Positions 1,691 to 11,322 of a stretch of DNA of 36,737 bases are shown piece after piece (the first letter of the stretch is position 1; the number at the start of each line of letters is the position of its first letter). This stretch comes from a virus. The stretch covers positions 1-36,737 of the IMG/VR virus record IMGVR_UViG_3300023284_000344; one strand, 5' to 3'. Made by a program: the position numbers and the translations under genes. The notes under the pieces were generated by a model that was not told the DNA's origin, ran no database searches, and worked only from the letters and a program-made list of their open reading frames with translations.

Positions 1691-1786
1691 ATGTTCGAAA
1701 CTGAGGCTAGGATAGCAACCGAAAAGCTGGAAATCTTCGCCAGCCTGCCTCGGTCTGTCACAGACGAAAACTTAAACAGGAACTAA
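1691..1786 (+). CDS. micro-ORF, 31 aa
   Basis: ATG at 1691 has a strong ribosome-binding site (GAGGAG, seven bases upstream). The 31-residue product begins MFETEARIATEKLEIFASL, is mostly one amphipathic helix and ends shortly before the next ATG at 1791. It fills an otherwise empty gap between two genes in the same direction. That position and the good ribosome-binding site are the evidence for it. Function unknown. Confidence 0.5.
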   Translation: MFETEARIATEKLEIFASLPRSVTDENLNRN

Positions 1787-2222: not shown

Positions 2223-2642
2223 ATGCGAAAGCGTTGTTTCAAATGCAAACAGTACAAATCATTGGATCAGTTTTATCGACATCCGCAAATGGCAGACGGC
2301 CATCTTGGAAAATGTAAGCACTGCGCAAAAAAGGATGTTTCTGAGCATTATCAGGAAAATCGTAGCTATTATGCTGAATATGAAAGGAAGCGATCTCAAC
2401 AACCGGAACGGAAACAAAAGGCATTGGAATATCAGCGACGACGACGGGCGAAATATCCAGGTAGGTACAAAGCATACACAGCAGTATCTAATGCAATCCG
2501 CGACGGTCGTCTTGAACGGCAACCGTGTGAAGTATGCAGTATGAAAGCACAAGCACATCACGATGATTACAGACGACCGTTAGTTGTTCGTTGGCTTTGT
2601 CGGAAACATCACCTTGAGCATCATAGCAAGAAAGCATTTTAG
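2223..2642 (+). CDS. HNH-like zinc-finger endonuclease, 139 aa
   Basis: The N-terminus has a zinc ribbon (CFKCKQYKSLDQFY, then CKHC). A basic helical spacer follows (residues 50-85), rich in Arg, Lys and Tyr. The C-terminus has CEVC, then HHDDYRRPLVVRWLCRKHH. This C..C / HHDDY..PL..WLC..HH pattern belongs to a widespread phage family treated as HNH-type endonucleases, and the gene at 23318 shares it. The gene has no ribosome-binding site and appears leaderless. It lies between the SSB-like gene and the zinc-finger gene at 2752, so it is probably a mobile insert in the operon. Confidence 0.8.
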   Translation: MRKRCFKCKQYKSLDQFYRHPQMADGHLGKCKHCAKKDVSEHYQENRSYYAEYERKRSQQPERKQKALEYQRRRRAKYPGRYKAYTAVSNAIRDGRLERQPCEVCSMKAQAHHDDYRRPLVVRWLCRKHHLEHHSKKAF

Positions 2643-2751: not shown

Positions 2752-2934
2752 ATGGCACATGATTTCAGATGCGATTATTGCGGACAGTTCATCTCATACG
2801 ATGACATTGGCGGTGATAATCCCAAAGCAGAATGCTACATGATGACCCCAGACTCAGAATTTAGTACAGAGACATATGCAACTCATCATCTGGATTGCAA
2901 AGATTTAGATAGGAGACAACATGGCACATCCTAA
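2752..2934 (+). CDS. small zinc-finger protein, 60 aa
   Basis: TAGGAG lies seven bases before the ATG. The product carries CDYCGQFISYDDI, then an acidic middle and HHLDC near the end, so CxxC plus HxxC could bind one zinc. Its stop overlaps the start of the exonuclease gene by 14 bases, which implies coupled translation. It may be an accessory factor of the neighbouring nuclease, but this rests only on position. Confidence 0.7.
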   Translation: MAHDFRCDYCGQFISYDDIGGDNPKAECYMMTPDSEFSTETYATHHLDCKDLDRRQHGTS

Positions 2935-3586
2935 AGGCGGATACAGGATTGACGGCAAGCGTGTTCCCGGCGTTACTACCATCACCGGGCGCTTCAAGGA
3001 CTCCGGTGGTTTGCTCTACTGGGCCTTCGAACAGGGCAAGGCAGCTGAACGTGGCGAGATCGACAAACTGTATGACAAACGCGATGCTGCCGGTGAGTCC
3101 GGCACCCTGGCGCACTCGATGGTCGAGACCCACATCAAGGGCGAGAAATTCGAACATTGTGCCGATACGCCAATCAGCACCATCACCGAAGCCGAACACG
3201 CATTCAAGGCATATCTGTCATGGGCAAAGATGACAAAGCTGAAAATCGTCGAACAGGAAATGCCGATGGTGTCCGAGCGCTATCAGTTCGGTGGTTGCCC
3301 CGATGCCATCGGTAAGATCGATAGGCAGTTATGCCTGGTCGACTGGAAAACCTCATCCGGCATCTATACTGATTACCTGGTACAGATTGCAGCCTACAAG
3401 ATATTGTGGGAGGAAAATAATCCCAAGCGACCATTGAAAGGTGGTTTTCATTTGTGCCGCTTTTCCAAGCAGCATGGAGATTTCGCACATCATTATTTTC
3501 CCGAGCTCCCGACAGCCGAGCGTCAGTTTCTGCGCTTTCGGGAAGCCTATGAAGATGACAAAGAACTCAAGGCGAGAGCTAAATGA
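2921..3586 (+). CDS. PD-(D/E)XK exonuclease of RecB/Cas4 type, 221 aa
   Basis: The nuclease core is visible. SGTLAHSMVETHIKGE (about residue 60) holds the motif I His. YQFGGCPDAIGKID (about 120) gives the metal-binding Asp of the PD motif. LCLVDWKTSSGIYTDY gives D-x-K. YLVQIAAYKILW is the Q-x-x-x-Y motif typical of RecB and Cas4 nucleases. Members degrade DNA ends in phage recombination or replication. The length of about 220 residues is normal for the phage branch. It lies behind an SSB-like protein, and together they suggest a recombination or DNA-processing module. No Cas4-type Cys cluster is seen, so CRISPR adaptation is not implied. Confidence 0.88.
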   Translation: MAHPKGGYRIDGKRVPGVTTITGRFKDSGGLLYWAFEQGKAAERGEIDKLYDKRDAAGESGTLAHSMVETHIKGEKFEHCADTPISTITEAEHAFKAYLSWAKMTKLKIVEQEMPMVSERYQFGGCPDAIGKIDRQLCLVDWKTSSGIYTDYLVQIAAYKILWEENNPKRPLKGGFHLCRFSKQHGDFAHHYFPELPTAERQFLRFREAYEDDKELKARAK

Positions 3587-3756
3587 TTCAGTACACCAGA
3601 CAGGGTGACATGGACAGACTGCTGCAAAAGCAGTGGAGGGCGAAGGTATGGATGTCGGGGAACATAATGGCGACAGCGATGAACGCGAAGGTGCGACATT
3701 TTTTCAAAAACCGAGTGACACATGGCAGGTTCTCATCATCGGAGTGTTCATCTTGA
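3583..3756 (+). CDS. doubtful ORF, 57 aa
   Basis: ATG at 3583 overlaps the exonuclease stop as ATGA, the junction used elsewhere in the operon. The frame runs for 57 basic residues beginning MIQYTRQGDMDRLLQKQW. More than half of it overlaps the better-supported membrane-protein gene at 3648, and its C-terminus is low in complexity and Ser-rich. It may only be a coupling leader for the next gene. Confidence 0.3.
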   Translation: MIQYTRQGDMDRLLQKQWRAKVWMSGNIMATAMNAKVRHFFKNRVTHGRFSSSECSS

Positions 3757-9210: not shown

Positions 9211-9219
9211 TGTTATAAT
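9211..9219 (+). promoter_or_regulatory. consensus extended -10 promoter for the HNH gene at 9311
   Basis: TGT plus TATAAT is a perfect extended -10. A six-base gap puts the predicted transcription start at G9226, which is the first base of a stem (GTGCC) in the leader described next. No -35 is evident. The motif lies just upstream of the tail fibre start on the other strand. Confidence 0.6.
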
Positions 9220-9225
9220 AACAGA

Positions 9226-9303
9226 GTGCCTAGACAAACGTAGTCGAAAACCCGGTTTCCGTACCGGGCTGGCACATTCCAAATACGGATCATCTAACGG
9301 AGG
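9226..9303 (+). promoter_or_regulatory. structured 5' leader, possible cis-regulatory RNA
   Basis: The leader begins with GTGCC (9226-9230), which pairs with GGCAC (9271-9275) to close a multi-branch structure. Inside it, CCCGGT (9251-9256) pairs with ACCGGG (9263-9268) around the loop TTCCGT (9257-9262). The loop's TCCGT is complementary to ACGGA at 9285-9289 and again to ACGGA at 9297-9301, and the second copy overlaps the Shine-Dalgarno GGAGG (9299-9303). A pseudoknot that hides or frees the ribosome-binding site is therefore possible. This is read from complementarity only; no known RNA family is recognised. Confidence 0.45.
9247..9268 (-). terminator. possible minus-strand terminator
   Basis: Read on the minus strand, CCCGGT-ACGGAA-ACCGGG is followed by TTTTC. 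It could weakly end transcription coming from the ejection genes before the tail fibre gene. The T-run is only four long. The same palindrome has a more specific reading as part of the plus-strand leader, so this is the second choice. Confidence 0.25.
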
Positions 9304-9310
9304 ATGTGTC

Positions 9311-9766
9311 ATGGCTAGAAAACAAGAACAACATGGAATGCGACATACGCCTGAATATGTAGCGTGGTTGCATTGTAAGGACCGATGTTTTAATAATAAA
9401 AGTCAAGATTTTCACGATTATGGTAAGCGTGGTATTACTGTTTGTGATCGATGGCGACATAGTTTCATAAACTTCTTTGCTGATATGAGTTATAAACCGT
9501 CATCAAATCATTCGCTAGATCGTATAGATAATGACGGTAATTATGAACCTTCAAATTGTCGATGGGCTACAAAAAAAGAACAAGCTCGAAATAGAAGATT
9601 ACAAAAAGGAAATATATCTGGCACAGCTGGTGTAACATGGCAAAAACAATGTAATAAATGGATTGTATTGCTTAATGTTAATGGCATTTTTAGATATTTC
9701 GGACTATATTCCGATCTTGATGAAGCAATTGCTGCACGCAAAGCTGCTGAATTAAAATATTGGTGA
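9311..9766 (+). CDS. HNH homing endonuclease with AP2-like C-terminus, 151 aa
   Basis: GGAGG lies seven bases before the ATG. The HNH core reads YGKRGITVCDRWRHSFINFF, then HSLDRIDNDGNYEPSNCRW and TKKEQARNR, the same pattern as the gene at 6818. The C-terminal 45 residues are AP2-like (GVTWQKQCNKWIVLLNVNGI, YFGLYSDLDEAIAARKAAEL), a DNA-recognition domain. The gene is AT-rich and antisense to the late unit, between the ejection protein at 9898 and the tail fibre gene. It is the only one of the four promoter-bearing HNH genes with a ribosome-binding site and a long leader. Confidence 0.92.
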   Translation: MARKQEQHGMRHTPEYVAWLHCKDRCFNNKSQDFHDYGKRGITVCDRWRHSFINFFADMSYKPSSNHSLDRIDNDGNYEPSNCRWATKKEQARNRRLQKGNISGTAGVTWQKQCNKWIVLLNVNGIFRYFGLYSDLDEAIAARKAAELKYW

Positions 9767-9769
9767 AAC

Positions 9770-9904
9770 ATGGTTAAATTACTACTTTGGATCATTGCAA
9801 TTCCGATTTGCTACATTTGGATGCAAGTAGATATTTGGTCTGGAATGGCAGCATGGATTCTGTTCCTTTGGTTACAAAGCCCTGACAAATTAGAAAATCA
9901 CTGA
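9770..9904 (+). CDS. small two-span membrane protein, 44 aa
   Basis: ATG 9770 lies three bases after the stop of the HNH gene, so the two would share a transcript. The product is MVKLLLWIIAIPICYIWMQV, then WSGMAAWILFLWLQ and a short polar tail: two hydrophobic spans rich in Trp and Ile. The 3' end overlaps the converging gene at 9898 by seven bases. It could be a true small membrane protein travelling with the nuclease or a chance frame; the clean membrane topology favours the former. Confidence 0.45.
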   Translation: MVKLLLWIIAIPICYIWMQVDIWSGMAAWILFLWLQSPDKLENH

Positions 9905-11322
9905 GCACCACGAGCAGTCAATTCAGATACTTTTTTGGCCGCCTTTGCGGTTCGTCCTGCAGCGGCAAGCCTGGACAAACCACCAACCGCAGGCACGATA
10001 AACGCACCAGCTGGCCCTGCTAAAGCAAAACCAAGTCCGGCACCAAAACCTCCTGATACCACACCAGTCGGTGCTAATTTACCAATAAACCGGAAAGCCT
10101 TCGTTGATAATGGACCACCTTTTGCAACACCTTTGATCGCTGCTTGCTCTGCTTGCGTAAATGTTCGCATCTTCTTTTTGTTTCTTGCCAGTTGACGAAA
10201 CTGCGTCGTTAAAGCATTCTCAAAACCACTGCCTGAAAACTGACCCGCATTGATACCAGCTCGCTCAATCAAATCCTCGATCACTTCGGTCTTTCTTGAC
10301 CGTGACCACAGACTCCGGGCAGACTTCAAATACTGTGCAGTCTCGACCGCATTTGGTGAACCTGAAAGTTGACCTGGTTTAAGATTTTCAATGAACTCAT
10401 CCCACTTGCGAACCAATCGCCCTGATGCTGCAGCGTCTGCTGTATCAATTGATGACTGACCCTGTTTGAAAACTCGTCGTAATTCTTCGGCTTTTGATAA
10501 GGTCAGTTGACCTGCTTTGGCATCTTTAGCAAGTTCTTTCAGCGCAGCATTGGTCTTTGGTGTCAGCTTGGCTCTGACTCCGCTCGCTCTCATTTCTTTT
10601 TCAATTCGTTTTGCAATGGTTTGGAAGGCTTCTTTAGAGATCGTAGTGCCAGAGTCGTCAACCAATTTATATAACTGAGTTGCCTGATTTTTTAATTGAC
10701 CAATCGTTGGAACCGGTGGTCGTTTGACTACTTGACCGACCTTACCAGCCTTGCTCACTCCGCCTAAACCAAGAGCAGTTAAGGCAATCTCTGGTGACAA
10801 ACTGGCCAGAGTTGCAAGCAATGGAGAAGCGCCTTTTTCTTCTGCAAGTTCTCCGAGATAATCACCCAAAGGAATTTCCCGAAAGGTTTTTGCCTCTTGT
10901 TGGCCGCTTATTACAAGCGGAACTGCAGAAAGGACGAATTTGATACCTTTGCCGAGCGCCTCGATTGGTTTCGCAATAGCTTCAGCGCCAGTACGACCAG
11001 CCTCAGTCAAGGGCTCGATAAACTCCTGTCCCTTACTTTCGACTGCCCTTACCGTATCGGCAGGGGCCAAAAAGTCAGGTCCACCCGGACCGCGTTGCGC
11101 ACCCTTTGCAAATTCAAAAGCAGTATCAGCAATTCCAGCCAGCCCCGCGACTGATTGAACTCCCAAATTGGCAGCAATAGAAGCGGCACCACGACCAATA
11201 TCACCCACAAACGACGTCTGTGGCGTTCGTAAATCAGTAGCCGGTTCTTCTACATCAAACTGGTCAAACACATTTTGTGGTGTGCTTGGTGCAGCATCAA
11301 ATTGATCAAAGACGTTTGCCAT
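9898..11322 (-). CDS. DNA-ejection protein in the gp16 position, 474 aa
   Basis: The N-terminus has two copies of a short motif, NVFDQFDAA and NVFDQFDVE, which is typical of phage internal virion proteins. Gly/Ala-rich segments follow that could insert in membranes (residues 40-60, 130-145, 175-195, 420-455), alternating with charged helices. Long helical proteins with amphipathic and hydrophobic stretches that lie inside the capsid and are ejected with DNA are the rule in this place; in P22 this is gp16. There is no transglycosylase motif. The stop of the upstream gene overlaps its start by one base. Confidence 0.7.
   Translation of the reverse strand: MANVFDQFDAAPSTPQNVFDQFDVEEPATDLRTPQTSFVGDIGRGAASIAANLGVQSVAGLAGIADTAFEFAKGAQRGPGGPDFLAPADTVRAVESKGQEFIEPLTEAGRTGAEAIAKPIEALGKGIKFVLSAVPLVISGQQEAKTFREIPLGDYLGELAEEKGASPLLATLASLSPEIALTALGLGGVSKAGKVGQVVKRPPVPTIGQLKNQATQLYKLVDDSGTTISKEAFQTIAKRIEKEMRASGVRAKLTPKTNAALKELAKDAKAGQLTLSKAEELRRVFKQGQSSIDTADAAASGRLVRKWDEFIENLKPGQLSGSPNAVETAQYLKSARSLWSRSRKTEVIEDLIERAGINAGQFSGSGFENALTTQFRQLARNKKKMRTFTQAEQAAIKGVAKGGPLSTKAFRFIGKLAPTGVVSGGFGAGLGFALAGPAGAFIVPAVGGLSRLAAAGRTAKAAKKVSELTARGAQ

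Follow-up and report, generated by a model that had tools for sequence, protein, structure and literature searches.

What does a structured RNA do in front of an HNH endonuclease gene on a viral genome, and does it belong to a known class? The gene in question lies at 9311-9766 of the window, i.e., the whole stretch of viral DNA analyzed here (36,737 nucleotides, IMG/VR record IMGVR_UViG_3300023284_000344). A sequence-only reading had proposed that its leader starts from an own promoter, folds into an outer stem and a hairpin, and offers the hairpin loop two alternative ACGGA partners, one of which would hide the ribosome-binding site, in an RNA of no recognized class. Overall, this interpretation is partly supported. 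The leader is a conserved structure that is already catalogued as int-alpA RNA, and this membership is ordinary; what deserves attention beyond it is the double complementarity of the loop, a further hairpin (P4) around the ribosome-binding site, and the association with nuclease genes. Given its conserved pairings, int-alpA RNA is probably a switch that controls protein synthesis.

An int-alpA RNA upstream of the HNH gene

A sequence check found stems, loop, and both ACGGA copies in exactly the positions claimed for them, and RNA folding of 9226-9313 returned the same stems among P1, P2, P3, and P4. The sequence-only reading had overlooked the P2 hairpin, P4 with the Shine-Dalgarno sequence in its loop, and a second copy of the RNA at 1700-1767. 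The features are as follows.

9211-9219 (+): putative promoter of the leader itself, an extended -10 box TGTTATAAT, from the sequence and by analogy with phage relatives
9226-9230 (+): 5′ strand of P1, GUGCC, from sequence and fold; P1 covaries in relatives
9230-9233: conserved CUAG, whose final G is the first base of the P2 hairpin
9233-9245 (+): P2 hairpin GAC-AAACGUA-GUC (GAC 9233-9235, GUC 9243-9245), from the fold; P2 covaries in relatives
9246-9250 (+): GAAAA of the junction motif CGAAAA, invariant in alignment A3
9251-9268 (+): P3 hairpin CCCGGT/ACCGGG (9251-9256/9263-9268) with loop UUCCGU (9257-9262), from sequence and fold; P3 covaries
9271-9275 (+): 3′ strand of P1, GGCAC, pairing with GTGCC 9226-9230, from sequence and fold
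9284-9289 (+): site 1, UACGGA (ACGGA 9285-9289), six Watson-Crick pairs with UCCGUA 9258-9263; covariation in the family
9291-9306 (+): P4, ribosome-binding-site hairpin CAUCU-AACGGA-GGAUG (core 9291-9295/9302-9306), from the fold; covaries in relatives
9297-9303 (+): site 2, ACGGA 9297-9301, with the Shine-Dalgarno sequence GGAGG 9299-9303; five Watson-Crick pairs with UCCGU 9258-9262
9311-9766 (+): HNH endonuclease gene (PHROGs phrog_374, E 8.7e-51)
1700-1767 (+): second copy of int-alpA RNA, differing in its loop (AAAUCUUCG); Rfam 45.2 bits, model R1 E 1.8e-9

Rfam assigns 9223-9288 to int-alpA RNA (RF02996) over the full model length (1-71) with 36.3 bits, only just above the cut-off of 35.8, and the three helices and the conserved CUAG and CGAAAA of the family are all present. 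Because this score is marginal, a model termed R1 was built as an independent check from 45 leaders of other genomes, with both window copies excluded. In 501,724 bases searched, R1 matched 9222-9291 (E 3.7e-10), 1699-1770 (E 1.8e-9), and one further place. The Rfam and R1 matches therefore overturn the earlier statement that the leader resembles no known RNA class. Up to E 5, the Rfam scan of the window returned otherwise only three sub-threshold snoRNA-like matches; no guide RNA of the HEARO or omega RNA kind, which is linked to HNH genes, was matched at that threshold.

Site 1, the pseudoknot partner of the P3 loop region, is the last element that the Rfam model covers; site 2 and P4 therefore fall outside it. 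The second ACGGA lies inside AACGGAGG, 9 nt 5′ of ATG 9311, and in the fold of 9226-9313 the six-base P4 loop AACGGA contains this copy and part of the Shine-Dalgarno GGAGG. Fold stability alone is modest: 9226-9290 exceeds chance with z -3.03 (1 of 200 shuffles was equally stable), 9226-9313 has z -1.75, and 9226-9320 has z -1.36. With seven more bases (9226-9320), P1 disappears from the minimum-energy fold and its 3′ strand pairs with the start-codon region instead; this modeled loss of P1 is counted against a translational leader. The comparative evidence, i.e., Rfam, the independent model, and the loop-site complementarity in relatives, is much stronger than folding energy.

The position of the proposed promoter is backed by TGTTATAAT and by phage relatives with a -10 box at the same place, on which the putative transcript start at G9226 also rests; a TTGACA-like -35 element was looked for and not found. 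The copy at 9223-9288 is located between two oppositely directed open reading frames, upstream of the HNH gene. This gene points opposite to both neighbors and has a GC content of 35.1%, compared with 49.7% for the window, as would be expected of an inserted cassette; its protein has no Pfam match at 1e-3. The HNH reading frame stays open through the leader, with no ATG, GTG, or TTG start upstream of 9311. A coding function was rejected both for the leader and for the int-alpA consensus itself: P2-region and P3-loop lengths in relatives vary by non-multiples of three, which makes a conserved peptide unlikely.

The copy at 1700-1767 pairs less well with its own sites, with four pairs to site 1 and three to site 2, and this poor pairing is likewise counted against a translational leader. 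Two further observations concern its surroundings. A possible 31-codon open reading frame at 1691-1786 (+) with a Shine-Dalgarno-like GGAG overlaps the copy, and a second putative nuclease gene lies downstream at 2223-2642 (+), with paired CxxC motifs and HNH-like by eye; neither has a Pfam match.

Covariation of the helices and of two loop pairings

Close relatives of the window genes lack the leader: of the 63 loci that encode relatives of the HNH protein, 62 had no R1 match and the single match lay on the opposite strand, 15 loci with relatives of the neighbor at 9898-11322 had no int-alpA match, and no viral relatives of the open reading frame at 1791-2180 were found. The leader is therefore not tied to the HNH nuclease, and covariation was tested on the family instead of on close homologues. 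Pattern scans supplied 89 stretches from viral contigs and at least 120 from genome contigs, the latter with a search bias as the genome scan pattern fixed part of the P2 loop. The first set comprised 123 distinct parsed leaders, window copies included, of which 118 had a downstream gene (L046 was dropped as spurious; L167, L200, L212, and L148 for want of an open reading frame) and 74 were nonredundant. An enlarged, re-parsed set with 49 additional viral leaders gave 75 nonredundant leaders with 71 different loops and overlaps the 74; 11 of 167 were unparsed (L172, L201, L216, L098, L337, L301, L313, L296, L310, L303, and L328) and L053 was omitted. Alignment A3 was confined to 10-base P2 regions (50 such leaders, 45 aligned). 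RNAalifold on alignment A2 recovered P1 only, because 9-base P2 regions shift that alignment.

Helices P1-P3 covary in the family: 97.4% of 765 cells are paired, with a covariation of 0.476 vs. 0.154 after shuffling and 106 cells changed on both sides vs. 25.1. Their junction carries conserved CUAG, CGAAAA, and CUG, unpaired bases that are near-invariant across phages and proteobacterial islands.

The P3 loop covaries with site 1, which lies 5-11 nt 3′ of P1 in 68 of 74 leaders. Across these 74, the longest Watson-Crick match between the loop and the first 18 bases after P1 averaged 5.22, compared with 3.96 for shuffled loops (highest 4.23; 0/500), and all six positions pair in 29 leaders (shuffled mean 5.6, highest 14). 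In the fixed register of this pairing, position -2 is occupied by TA (39), CG (13), GC (6), and AT (5), and position -1 by AT (29), GC (14), CG (6), and TA (3). The next 27 bases, which hold site 2, gave a mean match of 4.89 vs. 4.15 (highest 4.41; 0/500). The 75 leaders of the enlarged set repeated both signals, with 5.23 vs. 3.61 for site 1 and 4.56 vs. 3.77 for site 2 (0/500 each). Pairing with site 2 is weaker than with site 1 and is absent or short in some leaders; three pairs or fewer occur in L083, L116, L137, L312, and L331, among others, where the cut of the region also trims site 2. Both sites match loops as different as CCGTCAA (L355), TCGTCC (L311), GTCCTA (L266, site 2 GTCCT), and TCATCAC (L352, site 2 CATCA). 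Shuffling loops leaves the shared ancestry of the leaders in place; nevertheless, 71 different loops with matching sites argue against a single inherited match.

Site 2 usually lies inside a covarying hairpin, as predicted from sequence comparison. Four or more pairs to site 2 occur in 66 of 75 leaders, and in these the flanking arms of P4 form a mean stem of 4.64 vs. 3.44 with shuffled 3′ arms (highest 3.97; 0/1000), and 56 of the 66 have at least four such pairs. From the end of P1 to the start codon, the spacing is constant, with a median of 30.5 (quartiles 26-34, n=118). An absence of compensatory changes among homologous leaders, which the sequence-only reading had named as speaking against its proposal, is not what the family presents: the stems and the loop-ACGGA pairing covary. 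The core of that proposal, two alternative pairings of one loop, is largely upheld, each being kept by covariation in relatives.

Other pairings gave little or no signal. P2 did not pair with the ribosome-binding-site region, the site 1 region, or the gene start (163, 179, and 88 of 200 shuffles as high), nor did the 5′ strand of P1 pair with the ribosome-binding-site region (48 of 200); the 3′ strand of P1 had a weak family-wide signal there (1 of 200). P2 loops (e.g., in L138, L180, L160, and L079) often contain the short palindromes GATC, GGCC, or GCGC, which might permit loop-loop contact of two molecules.

Genomic settings of int-alpA leaders

As its name indicates, int-alpA RNA is expected beside integrase and alpA genes. 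Among the first-set leaders, 87 of 118 have an open frame of 100 codons or more close upstream on the same strand, and many of the upstream protein ends are tyrosine-integrase-like by eye. One island leader (L127) was matched in 187 of 5426 complete E. coli genomes; in the 20 matches listed, the annotation places it between a gene for a tyrosine recombinase and one for a hypothetical protein. In chromosomes, the gene before an int-alpA RNA is often that of an integrase, and the genes after it are diverse. The 118 downstream proteins fall into 78 clusters, and the 104 that were scanned include 11 Pfam families with one member each; this diversity indicates that the conserved unit is the leader and not the gene.

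The second viral set differs in what follows. Protein scans covered 36 of 44 new proteins and three others, taken from the window and earlier sets. Of the 36, 25 were inspected singly, and at least 18 are the products of a homing-endonuclease-like next gene. These genes are mainly HNH, with two GIY-YIG-like (L311, L334), and since several come from related phages, the count is not one of independent events. Near-identical leaders precede different nucleases (L300, L306, L326, and L329). The protein encoded after the L311 leader (2809-3654) is a fusion of a GIY-YIG nuclease domain with a Rep3 initiator. Just 5′ of P1, a box that matches TATAAT at 5 or 6 of 6 positions occurs in 22 of 50 leaders of the second viral set; for chromosomal leaders the count is 9 of 91, and for the viral leaders found earlier it is 2 of 27. 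Windows further upstream served as control and gave 5 of 196, a control that omits genome loci in the L264-L274 range whereas the chromosomal count covers all 91. The window copy at 9223-9288, with its own -10 box and a nuclease gene next to it, belongs to this phage type.

Nucleases are not the only phage genes so preceded. A Guernseyvirinae-type leader upstream of a tail assembly chaperone gene has the loop TGGTT and two AACCA sites, of which the second directly adjoins the Shine-Dalgarno sequence; 484 phage records match it, ten of which were read. Leaders of this kind (L389-L398 and L076 3270-3360) resemble int-alpA RNA: the loop has GGUU, the sites read AACC or AACCA, and some leaders also have a TAGAAT box.

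In the literature searched, to which the original description (reportedly that of Weinberg et al. in 2017) did not belong, int-alpA occurs merely as a list entry, and neither a function nor a link between its loop and a ribosome-binding site was found. The double complementarity and P4 make its function precisely and cheaply testable. With matches in 187 of 5426 E. coli genomes and in 484 phage records, int-alpA RNA is common, and the answer would therefore reach well beyond the window.

Possible modes of action and known systems

We lean, with moderate confidence and guided by sequence comparison, towards 9223-9313 being an int-alpA RNA that acts in cis as translational leader of the HNH gene, with one loop shared by a private pseudoknot and the ribosome-binding-site hairpin. 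Briefly, the transcript would begin at or near the outer stem P1, and P1, P2, and P3 would build a three-way junction with the conserved CUAG, CGAAAA, and CUG. The P3 loop UUCCGU might then pair with site 1 (9284-9289) as a pseudoknot, so that the ribosome-binding site would stay accessible, or with site 2, where the Shine-Dalgarno sequence is predicted to be exposed in the loop of P4 (9291-9306), so that initiation would be blocked. The balance of the two pairings could set nuclease output. We infer that the pairings exclude each other, that pairing with site 2 represses, and that the RNA acts in cis. The window leader fits every family point that supports this explanation.

The main rival is a C4-like antisense RNA, as in phages P1 (C4) and P4 (CI), a realistic possibility that we rate as rather less than probable. 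C4 antisense RNA is processed by RNase P to a small RNA that acts in trans. Similarly, P1-P3 could be released and its P3 loop could block the ribosome-binding-site hairpin in trans for immunity or autorepression, with site 1 as an internal cap or second target; site 2 in a hairpin loop suits such loop-loop contact, and Rfam types the family as sRNA. The general plan of an outer stem enclosing two hairpins, one with a loop complementary to a ribosome-binding site, is that of C4 (PMC5320573), and one RNA with two complementary sites is known from P4 CI (PMC4825925). Intrinsic terminators between site 1 and the Shine-Dalgarno sequence of the next gene (L338 5356-5373 and L079 9121-9138) would free the RNA alone and favor small-RNA release at least in that one subtype; by eye, however, most leaders have no terminator there. 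The short, near-constant distance between P1 and site 1 is what is expected of a pseudoknot within one molecule, and the C4 model (RF01695), which does find phages P1 and P4, matches nothing in the window up to E 5. Where a record holds two parsed copies, their loops differ in 9 of 10 records; these differences fit either explanation.

A cis switch that senses a ligand or protein, in which the junction bases CUAG, CGAAAA, and CUG bind a metabolite, an ion, or a host protein and so pick the pseudoknot, appears unlikely. A pseudoknot that competes with the Shine-Dalgarno sequence is a common riboswitch layout, and the near-invariance of unpaired junction bases in phages and islands alike would suit it, yet the extreme diversity of downstream genes indicates no common metabolite. 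That the complementarity is a by-product of purine- or pyrimidine-rich loops and sites, with P1-P3 serving an unrelated role, is very improbable: CCTT, a partner for nearly every Shine-Dalgarno sequence, does occur in many loops, but shuffles that keep loops intact never reached the observed matches (0/500), the 42 leaders without CCTT in the loop still gave 5.07 vs. 3.36 for site 1 and 4.29 vs. 3.58 for site 2 (0/1000), the TGGTT/AACCA pair is not a Shine-Dalgarno pairing, and site 1 is no Shine-Dalgarno sequence either.

Beyond the cis leader that we favor for the window, it is tempting to speculate, at rather low confidence, that int-alpA RNA serves mobile DNA as an exchangeable expression cartridge. 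Its loop would alternate between the private pseudoknot and a kissing contact with the hairpin around the ribosome-binding site; in phages the cartridge would be set, with its own promoter, before unrelated homing endonuclease families and structural genes, and its junction would sense a common signal. If true, selfish phage genes and integrated islands would share a general RNA switch.

Compared with known systems, the leader shares with int-alpA (RF02996) P1, P2, P3, CUAG, CGAAAA, and site 1, and scores above the cut-off over all 71 positions. It differs in that it has a -10 box of its own, is followed by an HNH gene, and apparently does not follow an integrase gene, and its Shine-Dalgarno site and P4 extend beyond the Rfam model. 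With C4 of phages P1/P7 and CI of P4 (RF01695), it has in common the outer stem around two hairpins, a loop complementary to the ribosome-binding site (here UCCGU with ACGGA 9297-9301), and two target sites per RNA. Unlike C4/CI, it has no match to the C4 model, a shorter outer stem, conserved linkers, and both sites 3′ of the RNA, one adjoining; the resemblance is one of working, not of descent. Homing endonuclease genes of T4 and Aeh1 (I-TevI, segB, and mobE; PMC2988022) have hairpins that hide the ribosome-binding site, so that RNA-structure control of such genes is already an established theme. These hairpins share with the leader an RNA structure before a mobile nuclease gene that controls translation, a control that is proposed for the leader. 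The T4 and Aeh1 site is hidden by a stable structure present only on longer transcripts, whereas the site in the leader lies in a hairpin loop matched by a distant loop, with a putative promoter upstream of the entire structure.
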